From: an uncultured Clostridia bacterium
GTDB lineage: Bacteria > Bacillota_A > Clostridia > Christensenellales > Aristaeellaceae
Length of the DNA stretch: 9,263 nucleotides
NCBI GenBank assembly: GCA_946408865.1
Contig: CAMJTZ010000068.1
Location: 1 to 9,263 of the forward strand
Direction: 5' to 3'
Shown here: positions 667 to 8,482 of the stretch, in pieces
How the letters are laid out: each line of letters starts with the position of its first letter
How positions within the stretch are numbered: the stretch's first letter is position 1
Notes under the pieces: generated by a model
Seen by the model: only the letters and a program-made list of their open reading frames with translations
The model's database searches: none
Told to the model about the DNA's origin: nothing
Translations under genes and position numbers: made by a program

Positions 667-2823
667 ATGACAGAAAAGAAGAAAACAGATCGGAACGTTT
701 ATGCATGGCGGCGCGTGATCCCCTGCCTGCTCCTCTGCCTGTGCCTGGCGGCGGGGATGGTTTCAGCGGCTTCCGCCGCGGAGAAAGCCCGGACGCCGGT
801 TTTTGAGGATGGCATGGCGCAGCCGGTTTTTACCTGGTCGAATCTGCGGAGCGACGATTACAGCAACGAGAACAGCGAAATCCTCCGCTTCTGCGTGTAC
901 GTCGAGACGGATCACGATACCGACATGGACGGCATGGCCGACCTGGTTGAGGCGTTCGTGCAGGTTCCCCGCGCCGCGGCGGAAGGATCCTTCAAGGCGG
1001 CGACGATCTACGATCCGACCCCCTACGGCACCGGCACGGTGGATGAGGAGGAGATGAACAGCACCATCCGGATGATTCCGGTTCCCTTTGACTACAGCCG
1101 GATGTATCAGCCGGGTGAAAAGCGGAACCCGAACGGGGTGGTGACGACGCTGGACGCGGCGGAGGCGGCAGATCCCGACAGCTGGAATTACCATGTTCCG
1201 GTTTCCGACAAACAGGGGTACGCCTACGCCAGCCAGTATGACTATTACCTCGTGCGGGGCTTTGCCGTCGTCGAGGCCGGGGGCATCGGAACCTACCACT
1301 CCGAGGGCTTTGAGCTCTGCGGCTTCGATCTCGAGCGGGACGCGCACAAGTGCGTCGTGGAATGGCTGACGGGGGACCGGGTCGCCTTCACGGACCCGTA
1401 CAACAACATCGGAATCAAGGCGGAATGGTCGAACGGAAACGTGGCCATGACGGGCTCTTCCTACGGCGGGACGATTCCCTTTGAGGTGGCGGTCACCGGC
1501 GTCAAGGGCCTGAAGACGATCATTCCTTTCGCGGGAATCGCCTCCTGGTACGACTATTCCAACTCCCAGGGCCTGCCGCGCTTTACGAACGCGGCGTACG
1601 TGAACGAGCTGGCTTCCTACAACAGCGGCGCCGCCTACCAGGACGACGACTGGACCGTCATCAACGACGACTACGCGTCCCTGCTCTGGCAGCTGGCGCA
1701 GGATCAGCTGGACTCAAACGGCAACTACAACGCCTTCTGGGAGGCGATGGACTATACCCGCGACGTTTCCAGGATCAACTGCTCGGCGCTGATCGTGCAC
1801 GGGCTGAACGACCAGAACGTCCTCCCCAGGCAGGCGGACCTGATGGTGCGGGCCTTTGAAAAGGCGGGGATGCCCTGGAAGCTTGTTCTGCATCAGGACG
1901 GTCACAACGATCTGAAGAACAAGAGCATCAACGGCGAGCTGTGGGAGGAAATCATGAACAGATGGCTGTCGCACTATCTCTACGGCGAGGAGAACGGCAT
2001 CGAACACATGTTCCCCGTCGCCGTACAGAGCAACGTGGACGGCAGCTTCCGGACCTACGAAAGCTGGCTGGACTTTGCGGCGGACACGTTCGCGTACGAC
2101 AAGACGGCCAACCCGGACGCAGTTTCCCACGTGGACGCGGCCGGCCTGAAGGAATACGCCCCCTCGTATCTCAGCGGGAAGGACGACTTCGGCAGGAAGC
2201 TCCTGCAGGACAACTACTATCTCACCCTGCCGGAAGGCACGTGCGCAACCTACATCTTTGATCTGCCGGAGAACTACACGATGTACGGCATCCCCGAGGT
2301 GCATCTCAGGATGGCCACGCCGGACGCAGACAAGGACGCCATGATGGTTACGGCCGCGCTGGTTGACACCATCGACGGCAAAACCCCGTTCAAGGCATTT
2401 CTTACCAAGGAAAGGCTGCAGAACACCGTACCCGTAAAAACCGTCGGGACGGGGGATTCGGGCCGCGTGTACGCCCGGATCCCGATGAAGGTGCTGGTGC
2501 AGAGCAACACCACCGCGAAGCTCGTCACCCTCGGGTTCGCCGACCTGCGGGACTACGGCCGCGGATACGAAGGCCGGGAATACACGGCGCCCGCGGAGGA
2601 GATGACCGCCGGGGAGTACCACGACTACACGATTTACCTCCAGCCCACGGTTCATACCTTCGCGCCGGGACACAGGGCCGTGCTCGTCATCACCGCCTGG
2701 GATCCCTTTACCGAATGCAACGAGGAAGGCAACGAAACGGACAAACCCAGGGATTACTCGTTTGACATCGACAACGCGTCGTTTGAATTCCGCATTCCGC
2801 GCAGCGCGCAGCCGCCGGTCTGA
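667..2823 (+). CDS. Exported S15-family peptidase, Xaa-Pro dipeptidyl-peptidase-like
   Basis: Complete 718-residue protein that probably releases Xaa-Pro dipeptides from peptides outside the membrane. A charged N-terminus (to about residue 16) and a hydrophobic core (about 17-37, ending ASAA) form a signal peptide. The alpha/beta-hydrolase core carries the nucleophile motif GSSYGG (Ser265), Asp382 in HGLNDQNV and His413 in QDGHNDL, the order expected for the S15 triad. The segment YYLVRGFAVVEAGG (about 193-206) resembles the region before the nucleophile in PepX proteins. The part after about residue 480 fits the C-terminal beta-sandwich domain of this family. DTDMDGMAD (84-92) fits a DxDxDGxxD calcium loop. 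Start chosen from ATG at 667 with GGAGGTG 10 bases upstream. Classical PepX of lactic acid bacteria is cytoplasmic, so export is a difference. Cocaine-esterase-type or acyl-transfer activity is an alternative within S15. It faces the transglutaminase gene tail to tail. Confidence 0.85.
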   Translation: MTEKKKTDRNVYAWRRVIPCLLLCLCLAAGMVSAASAAEKARTPVFEDGMAQPVFTWSNLRSDDYSNENSEILRFCVYVETDHDTDMDGMADLVEAFVQVPRAAAEGSFKAATIYDPTPYGTGTVDEEEMNSTIRMIPVPFDYSRMYQPGEKRNPNGVVTTLDAAEAADPDSWNYHVPVSDKQGYAYASQYDYYLVRGFAVVEAGGIGTYHSEGFELCGFDLERDAHKCVVEWLTGDRVAFTDPYNNIGIKAEWSNGNVAMTGSSYGGTIPFEVAVTGVKGLKTIIPFAGIASWYDYSNSQGLPRFTNAAYVNELASYNSGAAYQDDDWTVINDDYASLLWQLAQDQLDSNGNYNAFWEAMDYTRDVSRINCSALIVHGLNDQNVLPRQADLMVRAFEKAGMPWKLVLHQDGHNDLKNKSINGELWEEIMNRWLSHYLYGEENGIEHMFPVAVQSNVDGSFRTYESWLDFAADTFAYDKTANPDAVSHVDAAGLKEYAPSYLSGKDDFGRKLLQDNYYLTLPEGTCATYIFDLPENYTMYGIPEVHLRMATPDADKDAMMVTAALVDTIDGKTPFKAFLTKERLQNTVPVKTVGTGDSGRVYARIPMKVLVQSNTTAKLVTLGFADLRDYGRGYEGREYTAPAEEMTAGEYHDYTIYLQPTVHTFAPGHRAVLVITAWDPFTECNEEGNETDKPRDYSFDIDNASFEFRIPRSAQPPV

Positions 2824-2852
2824 GGGAGAATCATGTCCCCACCGTTCCCTCA
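2821..2852. terminator. Shared hairpin between two convergent genes, possible bidirectional terminator
   Basis: TGAGGGA (2821-2827) and TCCCTCA (2846-2852) are perfectly complementary, with a G-T wobble extending the stem. The peptidase TGA lies in the left arm and the transglutaminase TGA (complement) in the right arm. The 18-base loop holds one copy of the TGTCCCC repeat. No T-tract follows, so intrinsic termination is uncertain. Confidence 0.4.
2834..2849 (+). repeat. Copy A of the TGTCCCCRYCGTTCCC intergenic repeat
   Basis: TGTCCCCACCGTTCCC differs at one R/Y position from the copy at 4663-4678. It lies between two convergent stop codons inside a short inverted repeat. It lacks the GAACGAAAGG left half that accompanies the other two copies, so it may be a shortened or diverged member. 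Confidence 0.6.
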
Positions 2853-4568
2853 GCCGTTGCTGTCCTCCATTTCAGAGTAGACAAAGTACACAATATCGTG
2901 CTCCTCCGCGAAGCGGGCGGCATAGGTGTCATGGCTCTCCGTCCAGAAGGAGAAGTTGGGGCAGCCTTCAAAGGCGTCCTCAGCGATATACTGAACGCTG
3001 GAAGGGATGTGCAAGGTCCACAGGGCCCGGCAGTTTGCGAAGGCCCGGGACTCAATGGATTCCAGACCCTCCGGGCAGACGATCTCCCCGCAGTGGGGAT
3101 CGTTTTCATAGGCGCCGGCCTCGATGTGCTTCGTGCCGGCGGGAATTTCCAGCTTCAGCGGCTCGTCCGTTTCCCGCCGGCCTTCGGGGAAGATATTCAG
3201 CACCAGGCCGGAGGCGTCCGGCATTTTGTAGGTGTAGGTATCCAGGATGACTTCCTTTCCGTCCGGCAGGGTGACGGACACGCCCTTCAGGGCCCAGGCC
3301 AGCAGCAGCTCTTCCTCGCCGCCCATCAGGAAGGGCGGATCCTGGAAGCCCCGGGTGAAGATGGCCTGGTTATGCAGGCTGCGGGAGCTCCACACGGGTT
3401 CGCCGGCGGCGAAGGCGTCCCGGGCGAGCTCCGCGACGGTGCGGAAGTTTTCCCCTTCGCCGGTGCCCCAGGCGGCGCAGCGGCCGGTGTGCACGTGGTA
3501 ATTGGCGGCCAGGGAGCCTGTCGGCTGCTCAGGACTGCGGTTCCAGCTCGCGTCCAGCCATTCGTGGGTGAGGTGATTGAGCATGATATCCAGCTCCTTG
3601 TTCACCATAAAATGGCGGTAATCCTTGACCCCGTAGGAGAGGCCGTTTTCGTCCGCCGCGGGCTCGCTGTAGTCCATGGCGGGGTCGTTGCGGGGATGGT
3701 CGTCCCAGGTGGGATCCGCGAAAAACCATTCCCCGTCGATTTTCACTGCGTCCCAGGCGTGGTAGCCGACGCGGGTTTCCCCGTTGATCACATAAACCTC
3801 CAGCCCCGCCGCCCGGCACAGCATGGCGTACAGACGGGCATAGCTGTCGCAGACGCCGGTGCCCCGCAGAATCGCGTCGGTGGAATGAAAGGAGTAGGTT
3901 TCGTCATAGGTCAGATGGTCCAGCAGCCACTGATACAGGTTAAAGGCCGTCTGCCATTCATCCCCCGGCACCTTGCATTCCGCGGCGGCCGCGTCGATGA
4001 TCTCCGTGATCTGCTCCATGCCCGGGCCCTCCAGGGTAAAGCCGGCGGTAATGAGCACGTTATCGTCCGCGTTATCCATGATGACGGTGGCGGACAGATG
4101 GTACCAGCCGGCAACTTTCGGCCCGGCGCAGATCATCTTTTCCGGGAAGCCCTCATATTCTTTTACCCAGACCAGGCTCCAGGTGTCCTTCCAGTCCATA
4201 TCGTGGCAGGAAAGGTGCAGCTCGACGGATTTCACCCGGGAGGGAAGCGTCTGGTCCTTCCAGTCTTCCTTCAGCTGCAGCACCCATTCGCTCTCCCGGT
4301 TGAGGGCGGGCGCCCGGTCCGACATGTACAGCAGGCGGAAGGGGAGGACGTCCATGTCCAGGTTCTCCGGCTCTCCGCTCTCCGGATCGTATTCTTCCGG
4401 GTTGTATTCATCCTCCGGGTCGTATTCATCTTCCGGGTCGTATTCGTCCGCCGCCTCCGCCGCGGCGGCCGGAACGAAGGCGCCCGGAAATTCAGGCAGG
4501 CGGGGGAGCAGGCTGACGGACAGCAGGGCCAGCACCAGAGCGGTGAAAACGGATAAGAATCTCTTCAT
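2850..4568 (-). CDS. Exported transglutaminase-like protein with acidic repeat and C-terminal BspA-type LRR
   Basis: 572 residues from the ATG at 4568-4566. The preceding AAGGAA signal on the complement (about 4577-4583) and the signal peptide at this start argue against the 55-residue upstream extension, which would run through the promoter. Residues 1-39 are a signal peptide. Residues 42-62 are acidic repeats (EYDPED twice, then EYNPE and EYDPE). The transglutaminase-like core has Cys240 in GTGVCDSYARLYAML, His270 in GYHAWD and Asp285 in FFADPTWDD, an intact Cys-His-Asp triad. Around 475-565 there is a leucine-rich repeat of the BspA/LRR_5 type (HIEAGAYEND, ESIESRAFANC, YIAEDAFEGC). Proteins of this build in clostridia are exported and may cut or cross-link protein side chains or bind surfaces; the substrate is unknown. 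The gene has its own promoter and converges on the peptidase. Confidence 0.85.
   Translation of the reverse strand: MKRFLSVFTALVLALLSVSLLPRLPEFPGAFVPAAAAEAADEYDPEDEYDPEDEYNPEEYDPESGEPENLDMDVLPFRLLYMSDRAPALNRESEWVLQLKEDWKDQTLPSRVKSVELHLSCHDMDWKDTWSLVWVKEYEGFPEKMICAGPKVAGWYHLSATVIMDNADDNVLITAGFTLEGPGMEQITEIIDAAAAECKVPGDEWQTAFNLYQWLLDHLTYDETYSFHSTDAILRGTGVCDSYARLYAMLCRAAGLEVYVINGETRVGYHAWDAVKIDGEWFFADPTWDDHPRNDPAMDYSEPAADENGLSYGVKDYRHFMVNKELDIMLNHLTHEWLDASWNRSPEQPTGSLAANYHVHTGRCAAWGTGEGENFRTVAELARDAFAAGEPVWSSRSLHNQAIFTRGFQDPPFLMGGEEELLLAWALKGVSVTLPDGKEVILDTYTYKMPDASGLVLNIFPEGRRETDEPLKLEIPAGTKHIEAGAYENDPHCGEIVCPEGLESIESRAFANCRALWTLHIPSSVQYIAEDAFEGCPNFSFWTESHDTYAARFAEEHDIVYFVYSEMEDSNG
4383..4445 (-). 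repeat. In-frame acidic tandem repeat (EYDPED-type)
   Basis: About three and a half copies of an 18-base unit encode EYDPED, EYDPED, EYNPE and EYDPE just after the signal peptide of the transglutaminase-like protein. The DNA units are nearly identical, so copy number could vary by slippage. The Asp/Glu-rich spacer could bind calcium or act as a flexible linker; this is inference. Confidence 0.7.
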
Positions 4569-4613
4569 GTTTTTTATTCCTTCCGGATTTTCTTTTTTTT
4601 TCTTTATGGCTGT

Positions 4614-4642
4614 ATCATATACGAAAACCCGGTCCGGGTCAA
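4614..4642 (-). promoter_or_regulatory. Promoter for the transglutaminase-like gene
   Basis: On the complement, TTGACC (4642-4637), a 17-base spacer and TATGAT (4619-4614) form a strong sigma-A-type promoter, about 45 bases upstream of the chosen ATG. A perfect odd palindrome, ACCCGG T CCGGGT (4627-4639), overlaps the spacer and -35 and could be an operator. Confidence 0.65.
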
Positions 4643-4644
4643 CG

Positions 4645-4680
4645 CCGGGAACGAAAGGGCACTGTCCCCGCCGTTCCCGG
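4645..4680 (+). repeat. Copy B of the TGTCCCC repeat, with full inverted arms
   Basis: CCGGGAACG (4645-4653) and CGTTCCCGG (4672-4680) are perfect 9-bp inverted arms. The inner part holds GAACGAAAGG (4649-4658) and TGTCCCCGCCGTTCCC (4663-4678), and an inner GGG/CCC pairing is possible. The element lies exactly between the -35 box of the transglutaminase gene (4637-4642) and that of the STAS gene (4684-4689). It resembles a REP-like palindromic repeat. A regulatory site for the divergent pair is the alternative. Confidence 0.65.
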
Positions 4681-4683
4681 GAT

Positions 4684-4712
4684 TTGCTTCCGGATCCGCA
4701 ATGAAGTAAAAT
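4684..4712 (+). promoter_or_regulatory. Promoter for the STAS-kinase remnant
   Basis: TTGCTT (4684-4689), a 17-base spacer and TAAAAT (4707-4712) give a plausible sigma-A promoter. The -10 matches at 5 of 6 positions and the -35 at 3 of 6. It starts about 40 bases upstream of the TTG start and is divergent from the transglutaminase promoter. Confidence 0.5.
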
Positions 4713-4753
4713 GACAAAAAACTGGCGTATCAAAAATCCGGGAGGGAACCAGT

Positions 4754-5402
4754 TTGGAACCGCTGAAAATTGCTGCAGAATACCATCCGGAGATTCCGGA
4801 TCTCATCGTCCGGTGCTCGGGCCATATCACTTCCGCCAACGCGGAGGAGTTTAAGGAGCAGGTGGACGCGCTGCTGAAGCAGTATCCTGACGCGGCCATG
4901 ATCGTCGACTTTGACGGCGTGCAGGGGATCACCAGCGCGGGGCTCCGCGTGCTGATCCACGCAAAGAAGATCAACGAGGGGCAACACCTCTTCCGCCGTA
5001 TACGAGGTGTTCGACGTGACCGGATTCACCGCCATCATCCCCGTGACGAGGCGGGTGCGGACGCTGTCGGTGGACGGATGCGAAAAGATTGCCCAGGGCG
5101 CGGCCGGCGCCATTTACCGCCTGGACGAGGACACCATCGTGAAGGTGTTCACGCCGGAGGAAACCCTGCGGTCCATCCGCCTCGAGAGCGAGACGGCGAA
5201 GAAGGCGTTCTTCTACGGGATTCCGACGGCCATCTCCTTCGGCACGGTCCGGGTCGGGGACGCCTACGGCATCCAGTATGAGAGGACCTTTTCCAGCGTG
5301 CTGAAGGACGATCCGGAGCACTTCGGAGCGCATGTGCAGGATTATACGGCGCTGCTGCGGCAGCTGCACACGACGCGGGACAGCGACGGCGGAAAGGTAT
5401 AA
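4754..5402 (+). pseudogene. STAS domain fused to a phosphotransferase-like kinase; frameshifted and lacking the kinase C-lobe
   Basis: The TTG start at 4754 follows GGGAGGG (4740-4746) by 7 bases. The first frame encodes a STAS (anti-sigma-factor-antagonist-like) domain, including VDFDGVQGITSAGLRVLIHA with the conserved Ser before AGL. Near 4979-4983 the homology jumps to another frame, continuing as NTSSAVYEVFDVTGFTAIIP, the usual end of a STAS fold. Then comes a kinase N-lobe: glycine loop (AQGAAGAIYRL, about 5092-5124) and VAIK-type Lys (codon 5142-5144, TIVKVF). The arrangement resembles clostridial and Fibrobacter TIGR02172-type proteins (recalled, not searched). The reading stops at 5400-5402 after LLRQLHTT, before any HGD catalytic loop or metal-binding Asp. 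The linker at the frameshift also looks a few residues short, suggesting a small deletion. The product is probably inactive as a kinase. A separately translated short STAS protein, or an assembly error, remains possible. Confidence 0.75.
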
Positions 5403-5418
5403 GGATCTGGAAATCACG

Positions 5419-6636
5419 GTGGTGCTGCAGCTGAACAACCGGTACTATCTGGATTTCAAGGACGGGGAGCCGGCGGGATTTCCCAGGGGCGTCAGAATGG
5501 TCGTGCTGCCCAACGACGCAGCCATTCCGGATTTCCTGCGGGCCATCGAGGCGGAGAAACCGGACGTGGCCGTGGCCATGACCCATCCCGTCAGCGGATA
5601 CGACTGGAACGGGATCCGGGACGCGGTGATCGCGGAAAGCCTGCGGGACGACGGGATCGAAACGATCTGCGGCGACTACCCGGCGTCGCTGGTCTGCTTC
5701 GACAAGGCAAGAACCTTCCAGGTGCTGCGGGACAACGGATTCCGGGTTTCCGAAGCGGTGACCGTTGAACACGAGCTGTTTGCGCTCGAGGGGGCGGAGA
5801 CCGGATCCACGCTGAACGCGTACCGGGAAAGCATCCTGTGGAAGATCCGGAAGCTGGCGCCGGTGATCATCAAGGCGGCGACGGGATCGGGCTCCGTCGG
5901 GATCCGGGTATGCAGGACGTACGAGGAAGCGGAAGCCTTCCTGCTGAGCGGCGCGTTTGACAAGAATGCGATTGTCGAAAGGCTGCTGGAGGGGGAGGAG
6001 TACGGGGTTGAAATCCACGGCTGCGGCGGGAAGTATATCGTTTCCCCGCCCTACCGGAAGCTCAGCTATGAGGAGGACGTGGTGAACGACCCGCTGGGGG
6101 CGACGACGCTGAAGTACGGGCCGGTTCTCAGCGAAAGCATCCGGCCGGAAGCCCTGCGGGCGGAAATGCTCCGGCTGGCGAACCTGCTGGGTTTCACCGG
6201 GATCGTGAACCTGGATCTGTTCTTTGTGAACGGGGACTGGTACATCCTGGACATCAACGGGCGGTGGAGCGGCATCACCTCGCTGGTTTCCGCCTCCCAG
6301 GGCAGGAGCGCCTATGAGGTCTTTCTGGACCAGGTGACCGGGGACGACCGGGGACTGAACGACTGGACGCGGTGGAAGTACTGCTGCCAGTTCAAGATGC
6401 CGCAGACGGAAACGGCGGACTTCGGAAGGATGGTGGAGGACGGGGACCTGACCAGTGTTTCCAACGAGCAGATCCGCATCGGCGGGGAAACCAGATGGTA
6501 CAACGACGCGGTGACCGCGAGGTATGATTCTCCGGAGGCGCTGGCGGAAGGGTTCTGGAAATTCCGGGAAAAGTACCCGGAAATGCTGTGCGAAAAGAGC
6601 GTACGGGCGCTGGAAAAAGATATTGCTTCTCACTGA
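5419..6636 (+). CDS. ATP-grasp domain ligase, substrate unknown
   Basis: About 405 residues. ATP-grasp enzymes join a carboxylate to an amine or similar nucleophile through an acyl-phosphate. Numbered from GTG 5419: the N-terminal domain spans 1-110. The ATP-binding Lys152 lies in PVIIKAATGSGSVGI, where the GSGSVG loop is 156-161. Further ATP-pocket acids lie in IVERLLEGEEYGVEIHG (185-201). Metal ligands are Asp266 in NLDLFF and Asp278/Asn280 in ILDINGRWSG. A tail of about 100 residues follows. The start is uncertain: homology-like sequence begins around 5407 (EITVVLQL). GGAAAGG (5391-5397) is 9 bases from a CTG at 5407, and GTG codons follow at 5419 and 5422. An ATG at 5332 exists but would read the kinase remnant out of frame. 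It may be co-transcribed with the broken STAS gene. It could be a peptide- or amino-acid-ligase, but nothing nearby names a substrate. Confidence 0.8.
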   Translation: MVLQLNNRYYLDFKDGEPAGFPRGVRMVVLPNDAAIPDFLRAIEAEKPDVAVAMTHPVSGYDWNGIRDAVIAESLRDDGIETICGDYPASLVCFDKARTFQVLRDNGFRVSEAVTVEHELFALEGAETGSTLNAYRESILWKIRKLAPVIIKAATGSGSVGIRVCRTYEEAEAFLLSGAFDKNAIVERLLEGEEYGVEIHGCGGKYIVSPPYRKLSYEEDVVNDPLGATTLKYGPVLSESIRPEALRAEMLRLANLLGFTGIVNLDLFFVNGDWYILDINGRWSGITSLVSASQGRSAYEVFLDQVTGDDRGLNDWTRWKYCCQFKMPQTETADFGRMVEDGDLTSVSNEQIRIGGETRWYNDAVTARYDSPEALAEGFWKFREKYPEMLCEKSVRALEKDIASH

Positions 6637-6655
6637 TGTGGAACGCAGGGATGAA

Positions 6656-7336
6656 TCAGTTCCCGTTCACGTTCCGGATATAATCCTCCGCTGAAATCAT
6701 GGGCGTTTCCAGTTCGGCCACCGTTTCGGCGGACAGATGCAGTGCGGCGGCGTATTCTTCGCCCGCCGCCTCGAATTTCCGCAGCAGGGGATCGGCCACG
6801 ACGGCGGCCTCGGGTACATTGAGCATGGGCGTTTCCGGCACGCAGACGATGTCCGGATTGCCGAAGCAGGTTCTGCACATCTGTTTCAGTCCGTCAAAGT
6901 TTCCTTCCCAGTGCGGGAATCCGCAGCCGCAGATCACCAGCGTACGGATGCGGGAAAAATCCGCCAGCGCTTCATGCCGCACGGTTCCGTCCGGATTCTG
7001 CACCATCTTCATTTTCACCAGCGGGATCGTCCGGTCCAGCAGCGCCTTGAGATGAGAAGGCATGCCGTAGCAGTAGAGCGGGAAACTCCAGAGGATCACA
7101 TCCGCGTTCCGGTAAAGATCCAGGATCGCGTTCTGGTCGTCCGGGATGACGCAATGGCCGTCCCCGCGCTGCCAGCAGCCGAAGCAGCCCCGGCAGGGCC
7201 CGATCTTTTTGTCGATCACGTTGATGATATTCACCTCATGCTGTCCGCCCCGGTTCAGGCCTTTCAGGAAGGCGTCCGTCAGCCGGAAGGTGTCGCTCTT
7301 TTTCTTGGGACTGCCGTTGAGAACAAGAATCTTCAT
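6656..7336 (-). CDS. Iron-sulfur flavoprotein / NADPH-dependent FMN reductase family protein
   Basis: 226 residues. The ATG at 7336-7334 is preceded by AAGGAG on the complement (7350-7345) at 8 bases. The flavodoxin-like fold starts MKILVLNGSPKKKSDT, with the FMN-phosphate loop GSPxxxSDT (8-16). FPLYCYGMPSHLKALLDRT (85-103) is the second typical flavin-site segment. Between them Cys48, Cys51, Cys54 and Cys62 form C-x2-C-x2-C-x7-C, matching the compact 4Fe-4S motif described for archaeal and clostridial Isf proteins. The likely role is cytoplasmic electron transfer from ferredoxin or NAD(P)H to an unknown acceptor, possibly in redox stress. A plain FMN reductase without a cluster is the alternative. 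It converges on the ATP-grasp gene (19-base gap) and has a near-perfect promoter with flanking inverted repeats. Confidence 0.88.
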   Translation of the reverse strand: MKILVLNGSPKKKSDTFRLTDAFLKGLNRGGQHEVNIINVIDKKIGPCRGCFGCWQRGDGHCVIPDDQNAILDLYRNADVILWSFPLYCYGMPSHLKALLDRTIPLVKMKMVQNPDGTVRHEALADFSRIRTLVICGCGFPHWEGNFDGLKQMCRTCFGNPDIVCVPETPMLNVPEAAVVADPLLRKFEAAGEEYAAALHLSAETVAELETPMISAEDYIRNVNGN

Positions 7337-7382
7337 ATACTCTTCTCCTTACATCTGTTTTTATGTGAATCTCTGCTTCTGT

Positions 7383-7422
7383 GAAAGGTCCTTTCGTCCG
7401 AATCATTATAGAGAACGAAAGG
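7383..7422. promoter_or_regulatory. Candidate operator: CCTTTCGT/ACGAAAGG half-sites flanking a -10 box
   Basis: CCTTTCGTCC (7390-7399) and GAACGAAAGG (7413-7422) are complementary at 9 of 10 positions, with the minus-strand TATAAT (7405-7410) in the loop. A third half-site, GAAAGG (7383-7388), forms a separate palindrome with CCTTTC (7390-7395). A dimeric repressor bound here would cover the transcription start and the -10/-35 spacer. Confidence 0.5.
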
Positions 7423-7433
7423 TCACCTGTCAA
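7405..7433 (-). promoter_or_regulatory. Full-consensus promoter for the iron-sulfur flavoprotein gene
   Basis: On the complement, TTGACA (7433-7428), a 17-base spacer and TATAAT (7410-7405) match the sigma-A consensus at all 12 positions. The predicted leader to the ATG is about 60 bases. Such a strong promoter usually needs repression, consistent with the inverted half-sites around the -10. Confidence 0.8.
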
Positions 7434-7456
7434 TCCGCACTGTCCCCATCGTTCCC
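7413..7456 (+). repeat. Copy C of the TGTCCCC repeat, split around a -35 box
   Basis: GAACGAAAGG (7413-7422) is identical to the left half of copy B, and TGTCCCCATCGTTCCC (7441-7456) matches the core. Compared with copy B, about 15 extra bases lie between the halves. These carry the TTGACA -35 box of the flavoprotein promoter. The core again sits between two divergent -35 boxes (7428-7433 and 7457-7462). Confidence 0.6.
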
Positions 7457-7485
7457 TTGCGTCGGGCCGGCATTTGTGGTAACAT
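7457..7485 (+). promoter_or_regulatory. Probable promoter for the 11-mer repeat protein gene
   Basis: TTGCGT (7457-7462), a 17-base spacer and TAACAT (7480-7485) preceded by TGG, giving an extended -10. Each box alone is a moderate match. The position, divergent from the flavoprotein promoter and about 45 bases before the ATG, supports it. Confidence 0.45.
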
Positions 7486-7530
7486 ACAGAAACAAAATGA
7501 AAAAGAATAAGTAACCAAGAGGTGCAGATG

Positions 7531-8334
7531 ATGAAACGGTTCTTTGCAATTCTGATGGTTCTGTGCATGTTATCCACGGCGGCTTTCGCGGAGAGCGGAG
7601 AACAGAAATCCGTGTTTGACGCCATCGGGGGCTGGTTCAGCCAGGCGTGGACCGATGCTTCCGGCTGGGTTTCCCAGGCATGGACAGATGCTTCCAAATG
7701 GGTGGAAGGCGCCTGGAAAGATGCTTCCAAATGGATGGAAGCCGCCTGGGGAGACGCTTCCAAGTGGGTAGCGCAGGCATGGAACGATTCGTCTCAGTGG
7801 GTTGCCGGCATCTGGGGCGACGTTTCTTCCTGGATTTCAGGAACAAGTGAAAGCGCATCCGGACCGGCTGAATCCTGGTGGACAAAAACGTTTAGCACGG
7901 TTACCGGGAACACGGATCATCCATGGGACTGGCTTACTGAAGAAGCAGCAGCGCTTCAGCCGGAGACACGGGAAATCCTTTCGAAGGTAAAAGAAGCTGT
8001 AAAATCCGGCGAGGACGACGCGGAAGCAAAAGTAAAGGATGCTTTCAACAGCCTGCTGAAAACACTGAAACTGAGCGACGATGATGCACAGAAGATATGG
8101 AAAACAATGGAAGGCTACGCAAACCAGAAAGGGTTTTCCAAAACAGCCGTAGCCAAACTGGTTTTACCGTACCTGTTTCAGCTGACCATTGACGGCGCGG
8201 GAGCGCAGAACAATATGCCGGCAGTGGCCATTGCACAGTATTTTATGGCGATTGTCGGGAAGCTGAATATCAACTCGACGGATACGGTCAATTCACTCAT
8301 CGATCAGCTGAATGAGGCGTTTGGCAAAATCTGA
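7531..8334 (+). CDS. Exported Trp-rich 11-residue (hendecad) repeat protein, function unknown
   Basis: 267 residues from ATG 7531. AGAGGTG (7518-7524) gives 6-base spacing to this ATG, and starts at GTG 7522 or ATG 7528 would only lengthen the signal peptide. Residues 1-20 are a signal peptide ending AAFA. Residues 35-100 are six tandem 11-mers with consensus W-[VFM]-x-x-[AI]-W-x-D-[AV]-S-x, plus a partial seventh to 104. Trp recurs at 35, 40, 46, 51 and so on to 101, and there are 18 Trp in total. Plotted at 100 degrees per residue, W1, A5, A9, V2 and W6 all fall within a 140-degree face, and Ser, Lys and Asp fall opposite. This implies a continuous amphipathic helix. Residues 105-135 are a Ser/Gly/Trp linker, and 137-267 a predicted mostly helical domain with no family I recognise. 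Membrane-surface binding, lipid binding or oligomer formation outside the cell is inference. GC content looks lower than in the neighbours. The 3' end overlaps a transposase remnant. Confidence 0.85.
   Translation: MKRFFAILMVLCMLSTAAFAESGEQKSVFDAIGGWFSQAWTDASGWVSQAWTDASKWVEGAWKDASKWMEAAWGDASKWVAQAWNDSSQWVAGIWGDVSSWISGTSESASGPAESWWTKTFSTVTGNTDHPWDWLTEEAAALQPETREILSKVKEAVKSGEDDAEAKVKDAFNSLLKTLKLSDDDAQKIWKTMEGYANQKGFSKTAVAKLVLPYLFQLTIDGAGAQNNMPAVAIAQYFMAIVGKLNINSTDTVNSLIDQLNEAFGKI
7633..7842 (+). repeat. Six in-frame 33-bp tandem repeats encoding W-x4-W 11-mers
   Basis: Units start at 7633, 7666, 7699, 7732, 7765 and 7798, each opening with TGG, and a partial seventh runs to 7842. Units 1-4 share GATGCTTCC or a near match. 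Units 5 and 6 are more diverged in DNA yet keep the two Trp and the Asp, so selection on the protein pattern is likely. The units are contiguous, with no spacers. Confidence 0.9.
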
Positions 8335-8482
8335 AAACCACATATACGCTCAATACTTTGCCAATATCCGCACCTATATCGAAACCTGCGCCAGAAACGG
8401 TGTGAACGAATTCCAGGCTCTTCTTCGCCTGACTCAAAACAAGCCCTATACTCTCCAGGAACTCTGGGCTGCCGGTAGTTAA
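8312..8482 (+). pseudogene. C-terminal remnant of an IS66-like transposase
   Basis: A 56-codon frame, opening with ATG at 8312 inside the end of the repeat-protein gene, encodes HIYAQYFANIRTYIETCARN followed by GVNEFQALLRL and a short tail to TAA at 8480-8482. The pattern IRxYIxTxxxxGxNxxxAL is typical of the extreme C-terminus of IS66-like transposases (from memory). The homologous part begins around 8327-8333, where the upstream gene stops. The catalytic DDE region is absent, so it is a leftover of a mobile element. No matching terminal inverted repeats or target duplication could be fixed by eye. A short real protein is less likely because no ribosome-binding site stands before 8312. Confidence 0.55.

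Follow-up and report, generated by a model that had tools for sequence, protein, structure and literature searches.

A tryptophan-marked 11-residue repeat array in a putatively exported protein family of Clostridia with relatives at toxin/immunity loci

Amphipathic helices with an 11-residue period lie on lipid surfaces in exchangeable apolipoproteins, ApoLp-III and synuclein. Tandem 11-residue repeats in which Trp serves as a marker have been described, in the sections of PMC3271669 and PMC5099701 consulted, for phage tape-measure proteins; according to the latter, these proteins help DNA to pass into the cell, and one repeat could be swapped for alanines with infectivity unaffected. A different kind of system, the Sec/T2SS polymorphic toxins, includes the known pairing of LHH toxins with SUKH immunity proteins, and a Trp 11-mer leader is unmentioned in the excerpt of the paper used here (PMC3482391).

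We studied a stretch of 9,263 nt (the window) from contig CAMJTZ010000068.1 of an uncultured Clostridia bacterium (Aristaeellaceae; assembly GCA_946408865.1), and in particular the protein P0001 encoded in it. Like the tape-measure proteins, as far as described in the consulted part of PMC3271669, P0001 has 11-residue units in tandem that are marked by Trp and differ in number among its relatives; unlike them, it carries a putative signal peptide for Sec export, has six to seven units with two Trp each, and possesses a C-terminal helical domain of its own. As regards the polymorphic toxins in the excerpt of PMC3482391, the corresponding module of several relatives is encoded immediately upstream of an exported LHH protein and a SUKH-like gene, and an N-terminal module is shared while the C-terminal parts change, but for P0001 itself Pfam and searches of the window with cassette genes gave neither a toxin domain, at its C-terminus or in the next gene, nor an adjacent immunity gene.

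The repeat array and export signal of P0001

The features of the window are collected in Table 1. The start codon of P0001 is either that at 7528 or a second Met codon at 7531, which by eye has the better-spaced ribosome site; residue numbers in an earlier sequence-only reading of this DNA were one lower than ours, as if counted from the second Met. The signal peptide is textbook-like (MMKRFFAILMVLCMLSTAAFA/ES) and lacks a lipobox (by eye), and the family alignment repeatedly shows a basic start, a hydrophobic stretch and an Ala ahead of the cleavage site. P0001 is therefore probably Sec-exported, as that reading had proposed, and would consist, without an anchor, of the array, which takes up only the N-terminal third, and the conserved helical domain that makes up the remainder.

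Table 1 Coordinates of genes and P0001 features in the window
Feature	Position	Strand	Basis or remark
S15 peptidase	667-2823		
Transglutaminase/LRR protein	2850-4733	-	
STAS	from 4754		
ATP-grasp	5332-6636		
Flavodoxin-like reductase	6656-7336	-	
Ribosome-binding-site-like AGAGGTG	7518..7524	+	by eye
Gene for putatively exported protein P0001	7528..8334	+	268 aa; translation
Putative Sec-type signal peptide, residues 1-21, without lipobox	7528..7590	+	by eye
Six full 11-residue units W-x4-W-x5, residues 36-101 (amphipathic hendecad array)	7633..7830	+	
Start of degenerate seventh unit (W102)	7831..7842	+	translation, position listing
Linker helices; W117, W118 and T121 nearly invariant	7843..7905	+	family alignment; structure model
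C-terminal helical domain, residues 127-268	7906..8331	+	pLDDT, profile comparison with shuffle controls
Sugar-binding-type periplasmic binding protein	8772 onward		

Trp occupies positions 36, 41, 47, 52, 58, 63, 69, 74, 80, 85, 91, 96 and 102, so that the gaps alternate between 5 and 6 with zero exceptions (translation, position listing). The six units read WFSQAWTDASG, WVSQAWTDASK, WVEGAWKDASK, WMEAAWGDASK, WVAQAWNDSSQ and WVAGIWGDVSS. The chain of Trp in this 5/6 register counts 14 residues over eight steps, the fourteenth (Trp 118) falling outside the perfect array, while 10,000 shuffles of the mature protein reached a maximum of 7. The six 11-mers and partial seventh first read from the sequence are confirmed as a real repeat, far beyond chance. 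For the array, Tandem Repeats Finder gave two 33-base rows that overlap (7641-7703 and 7681-7769). When the six units were compared with one another, the third codon positions were the most variable (a mean of 5.7 of 11 sites, versus 3.8 and 3.5), and 4.7 of 11 residues differed on average; the claim that the DNA diverges under a constant pattern is true mainly of Trp, Ala, Asp and Ser. Among 297 distinct family units, selected for Trp at 0, 5 and 11, 87% had Asp at position 7, 78% had Ser at position 9 and 73% had Ala at position 4. Array length changes by whole units, with 5 to 9 steps in 89 of the 92 proteins collected. In a 30-row alignment, Trp 69, 74, 80, 85 and 96 of the array were invariant and the C-terminal domain was conserved as well.

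The hydrophobic moment peaks at 98 degrees per residue, i.e., three turns per 11 residues, which agrees with the proposed 11-residue amphipathic period with Trp edges. The observed value was equalled by none of 5,000 shuffles on the Eisenberg or the Fauchere-Pliska scale and by 21 of 5,000 on the interface scale, where the top peak over 60-180 degrees stood at 66, not 98. A wheel drawn with 98.2 degrees for each residue shows an apolar arc of 131 degrees that has Trp at both edges (0 and 131), Ala at 33 and at 65, and Val at 98, its centre being mostly small Ala. The wheel proposed before was thus about right in placing Ala and Val between two Trp and Lys (262) opposite; Asp (327) and Ser (164), which it had also put opposite, flank the Trp. 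All 11 arrays measured showed a moment peak at 97-99 degrees within the 85-120 range, two of them with a slightly higher peak outside it (131, 164), and all 11 were net acidic (-0.63 to -1.71 per 11-mer; -4 for residues 35-104 of P0001), including those with one or two Trp. Since even arrays with few Trp keep the period of about 98 degrees, it is the period, more than the Trp, that the group keeps. The whole-residue interface free energy ranged from +0.59 to -2.32 per 11-mer (positive being favourable, with the backbone folding term left uncounted), i.e., it was near zero or unfavourable. Asp and Ser conserved by position, together with the small Ala centre, fit specific packing better than surface coating. 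With its period of about 98 degrees the array can be fitted to the hendecad coiled-coil pattern, the apolar residues falling on positions a, d, e and h; Trp at two of five apolar positions is unusual for such a coiled coil.

The helical domain and the family

The C-terminal domain of P0001 was modelled as helical with pLDDT block means of 75-95. The array was the least certain part of the model, with residues 21-74 below pLDDT 50 and block means of 34-50 over residues 21-80 of the monomer. A Foldseek search of the PDB with the domain model gave no match at E <= 0.001 from which a structural family could be named. Comparison of helical-domain profiles with hhalign scored the window type at 99.2% against type 2, 98.9% against the Gly/Ala group and 93.9% against type 3 (types defined below); in 20 column-shuffles for each of these three comparisons the score was at most 1.4%, and with reversed profiles at most 0.9%. 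Types 2 and 3 compared directly reached only 67%. The profiles were built from 28 window-type, 11 type-2, 4 type-3 and 5 other sequences, with L025 left out. The four architecture groups thus share one homologous helical domain behind the array.

A protein search with P0001 found 45 homologues at E <= 0.01, with full-length alignment, and a search with the alignment retrieved 89 out of 5,088 candidates. Only five of the 89 were named by their source, all as 'hypothetical protein' and four from Clostridia or Clostridium MAGs; a precomputed Pfam domain was present in one. A further search with the array of P0074 gave nine proteins, two of them new. According to their record titles, the relatives come from gut or rumen Clostridia. 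P0001 had no Pfam match above cut-off, no curated family was found, and the titles and abstract starts retrieved from open-licence PMC literature contained no description of the exported family, which is undescribed as far as searched. This part of the sequence-only reading stood; its further suggestion that no family with the feature was described did not, given the Trp 11-mers published for tape-measure proteins (PMC3271669, consulted in part). Other candidate matches were set aside. Rep3_N (five of 30 members) and DUF1002 (three of 30) matched at E 0.001 or weaker and fell below cut-off in P0001. Among PDB sequences, we took as chance both the match to the beta-cell expansion factor BefA (E 0.17, profile positions 2-82, covering the signal peptide and array) and that to 7rdr, the best row (E 1.2e-12), in which eight weak copies in a designed repeat were summed.

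Two genome samples were scored for the module. In the sample of 300 genomes from the family of G001, with at most eight candidates scored per genome, module genes were present in at least 27, a lower bound since at least one array protein, that at locus L072, was missed. In the class-level sample, with at most six candidates scored per genome, five of 391 genomes matched, G001 included. The four others were two tape-measure-like proteins, an RHS protein and a membrane protein with a similar tail. The best matches of L079 were to tape-measure families (3.7e-83); L078 hit a family of unknown function first, followed by a tape-measure family (4e-49). By eye, YD repeats mark L077 as an RHS protein, and L076 looks like a membrane protein whose tail is made of aromatic 11-mers. 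Tape-measure models were also matched by the arrays of L076 and L077. Occurrence was patchy among close kin (four of eight genomes of one genus, five of 45 of another), and two copies were irregular, that of G002 having one in-frame stop early in the match and that of G145 (L039) lying in two overlapping frames.

Among the open frames of the relatives, one form is bare and the others continue in at least three ways after the signal peptide and array, showing that the array, often with the homologous helical domain, is an N-terminal module with differing C-termini. Proteins of type 1, the window type, stop at the end of the helical domain; those of type 2 carry a related helical domain, to which some add a further domain; in type 3 the array leads into a beta-rich domain, with the helical domain present or absent (a structure model of this beta-domain type, A2, had a mean pLDDT of 40); other relatives have glycine/alanine arrays. 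In the long type-2 forms, L037 (914 aa; 4868-7612) and L038 (879 aa; 2211-4850), the exported module precedes a long toxin-like C-terminus, and the proteins contain a region of the pattern 'GHGWAAERGNN...KNGADR...IQTKYY'. The only Pfam match there, just above cut-off (33.2 bits versus 30), was to a stretch of L037 resembling C19orf12, and the region of L038 matched no family, so that the term toxin-like rests on the layout and on a conserved gene of 115-130 aa directly behind the long proteins in L037, L038 and L039. A relative of this small gene, named by no family, follows the array gene in L057. In the shorter type-2 proteins P0075 and P0078 the last residues are like the very C-terminal end of the forms of 879-914 aa, and by eye it looks as if the middle of such a form had been lost. 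At L060 and L063 the array proteins end in a 'FGMPLSEA' domain, and the next exported proteins look like paralogues of it (by eye). In the RHS proteins L005 (Streptomyces sp. A1136; from 10004) and L077, both recognized by eye, an aromatic 11-mer array stands directly behind the RHS core and ahead of the C-terminal region, whereas the array of P0001 is N-terminal and RHS repeats are absent.

Gene neighbourhoods of P0001 and its relatives

When the 9.3 kb of the window were searched with seven queries taken from the cassettes described below, no relative of LHH, SUKH, the small gene or the beta domain turned up, and the neighbours scanned at L001-L004 had no toxin set in common. At L003, S15 and transglutaminase/LRR genes lie within 10 kb of the array gene, so the neighbourhood is partly conserved. 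Just after the P0001 stop, an open stretch on the plus strand (8339-8482) resembles the C-terminal end of a transposase, which we take to be IS66-type. It had no Pfam match; four plasmid records matched, the best and unannotated at E 3e-4 and two annotated as transposase at E 0.2 and 0.8, and the stretch may be an insertion-sequence remnant. At L004, from a sheep-rumen MAG, two ABC exporters (11245-15649), presumably NHLM-like, start 489 bases behind the array gene, and the first carries a C39 peptidase domain; as such exporters were not seen among the downstream genes compared at the other loci, we claim no link for this pair.

PF14411 (LHH nuclease) had 15 matches in 15 genomes of the 300-genome sample. 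A recurring exported set of a beta-domain protein, an LHH nuclease with signal peptide and a SUKH-like gene was seen among L042 (2103-4983) and the 14 other LHH loci. The beta-domain protein lies directly upstream of the LHH gene in 13 of the 15 loci. An array-fronted exported protein stands directly ahead of the LHH gene in seven (L042, L049, L050, L052, L053, L065 and L072), and a DUF6273/TPR-like front, identified by Pfam in two loci and by eye in the other four, replaces the array on the beta-domain protein in six. Since the array is replaceable in this way, the beta domain, rather than the array, is the constant partner. L071 has a shorter ORF of the DUF6273/TPR-like kind upstream of the LHH gene, and L067 stops at the contig edge. 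The SUKH-like gene adjoins the LHH gene in 13 loci (all except L053 and L070) and occurs together with the beta domain in 11; in L043, which lacks LHH, it follows the array protein. Pfam confirmed LHH and SUKH in L042 (5e-20 and 7.3e-9) and SUKH in L043 (1.3e-11). The LHH gene of G009 (L053) is split over two open frames. Cassette arrays are more divergent: those of L049, L052 and L053 have roughly one Trp for every 11 residues, and that of L065 counts only some three units.

Possible roles of the array

We tentatively favour, at a probability of about 0.4, a role of the array as an extracellular stalk or docking module that assembles through an Ala/Val groove and Trp ridges and serves exported antagonism proteins. 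It is favoured by the specific polar conservation, the small centre of the apolar face, the acidic charge and a unit number that varies as in tape measures. The N-terminal part of P0001 would form a straight amphipathic alpha-helix of about 10 nm, made of six to seven 11-residue units, along which Trp ridges would border a shallow Ala/Val groove; given the low confidence of the array model, helix and docking are deduced from the periodicity. Outside the cell, the array may work as a length-adjustable stalk whose apolar groove docks onto another copy or a similar helix as the strands of a hendecad coiled coil do; docked arrays would assemble or mount whatever follows them. Array and helical domain together would form the N-terminal module shared by a larger family of exported proteins in one Clostridia group. 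Because the continuation in several relatives is part of a toxin/immunity cassette, the module would most likely serve exported proteins directed against neighbouring bacteria. P0001, which has the module only, could be an assembly partner that stands by itself, or the orphaned part of such a system. We infer in this way that the array would be helical in solution and dock onto itself as an extracellular stalk, and that P0001 may take part in antagonism.

The resemblance to tape measures bears on two other explanations. P0001 matched five tape-measure families of PHROGs at E 2.8e-8 to 2.3e-5 (the best being phrog_1535 at 2.8e-8 and phrog_167 at 7.9e-8) and one more at 0.021. The array alone matched these models weakly (best E 0.0017), and none of three versions of P0001 with residues 35-104 shuffled did, suggesting that the similarity depends on residue order. 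Among translated phage records, 166 had a match at E <= 1, and the best 12 of the 166 were annotated as tape measure; peptide patterns gave no match in viral contigs. These matches speak for P0001 being a fragment of a domesticated prophage tape measure that acquired a signal peptide, which we nevertheless regard as very unlikely: the helical domain, present family-wide, had no tape-measure match in PHROGs, the best 12 of 166 phage matches showed 24-27% identity at E 0.01-0.1, as convergence on an 11-mer predicts, the six window neighbours scanned include no gene of a phage tail or other phage gene, and P0001 (by eye) bears a signal peptide, which a virion protein would lack. The same order-specific similarity could instead reflect a membrane-active translocation helix, the main rival to the stalk, which after release would lie on or insert into the target-cell membrane and help linked or partner proteins to cross it, as tape measures do for DNA. 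Trp at both interfaces of the 131-degree apolar arc, the arrays just before the C-terminal region of the RHS proteins L005 and L077, and the toxin cassettes neighbouring the relatives agree with such a helix, but the net acidity of all 11 arrays, an interface free energy near zero or unfavourable (backbone folding term uncounted) and a face centre of mostly small Ala, with strongly conserved Asp and Ser, make it possible rather than probable, and on balance somewhat unlikely.

The sequence-only reading had suggested a lipid coat or a surfactant-like or antimicrobial protein. A surface-coating or surfactant-like lipid binder of the exchangeable-apolipoprotein kind would share with apolipoproteins, ApoLp-III and synuclein the 11-residue amphipathic period, and sub-threshold matches occur in a few family members: PF01442 in four of 30 (best E 0.01) and PF07464 (ApoLp-III) in three of 30 (best E 0.0003), with the homologue P0061 reaching 31.9 bits for ApoLp-III, below the cut-off of 36.3. 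P0001, however, matches neither at E <= 1 and differs from these proteins in its acidic, Trp-edged, Ala-centred array and its separate conserved helical domain; the Asp and Ser fixed by position, the varied C-termini of the relatives and their place in nuclease/immunity loci also argue against a lipid coat, which we consider unlikely, and a general lipid binder of this kind has in our estimate a low probability. The module occurs on varied exported proteins, several in toxin/immunity sets, and may thus be a swappable mounting or delivery part, not a lipid coat. Trp-rich antimicrobial peptides are typically cationic. The exported and Trp-rich P0001, with its toxin-associated relatives, might be thought an antimicrobial protein by itself with the Trp array as the killing part, but the array is net negative and the window holds no immunity-like gene related to those of the cassettes, so that this seems highly improbable; arrays that are net acidic and modular speak against surfactant and antimicrobial peptide alike.

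Beyond the stalk or docking role preferred here, we mention a wider reading as speculative and itself unlikely: Trp or aromatic hendecad arrays might be a recurring device for macromolecule transfer, found in tape measures, RHS toxins and the exported Clostridia family. The family would then provide the front part of a toxin system that monoderm bacteria export through Sec, with the array acting in cis in the 914- and 879-aa toxin-like proteins and in trans as partner of the LHH nuclease, and arrays of variable length might set the reach or the geometry of a pore.

A family that was unnamed and, in our data, almost solely metagenomic thus gains a probable structure and a modular logic, together with a testable setting, antagonism between Clostridia of rumen and gut. 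The 11-mer of tape measures, which has been described from phage tails, is also linked to exported bacterial toxin loci. To our knowledge, the mounting and transfer of Gram-positive Sec-exported nuclease toxins are poorly understood outside T7SS and RHS/WapA; if the array is a delivery or assembly part, it would bear on how such toxins are mounted and passed on.
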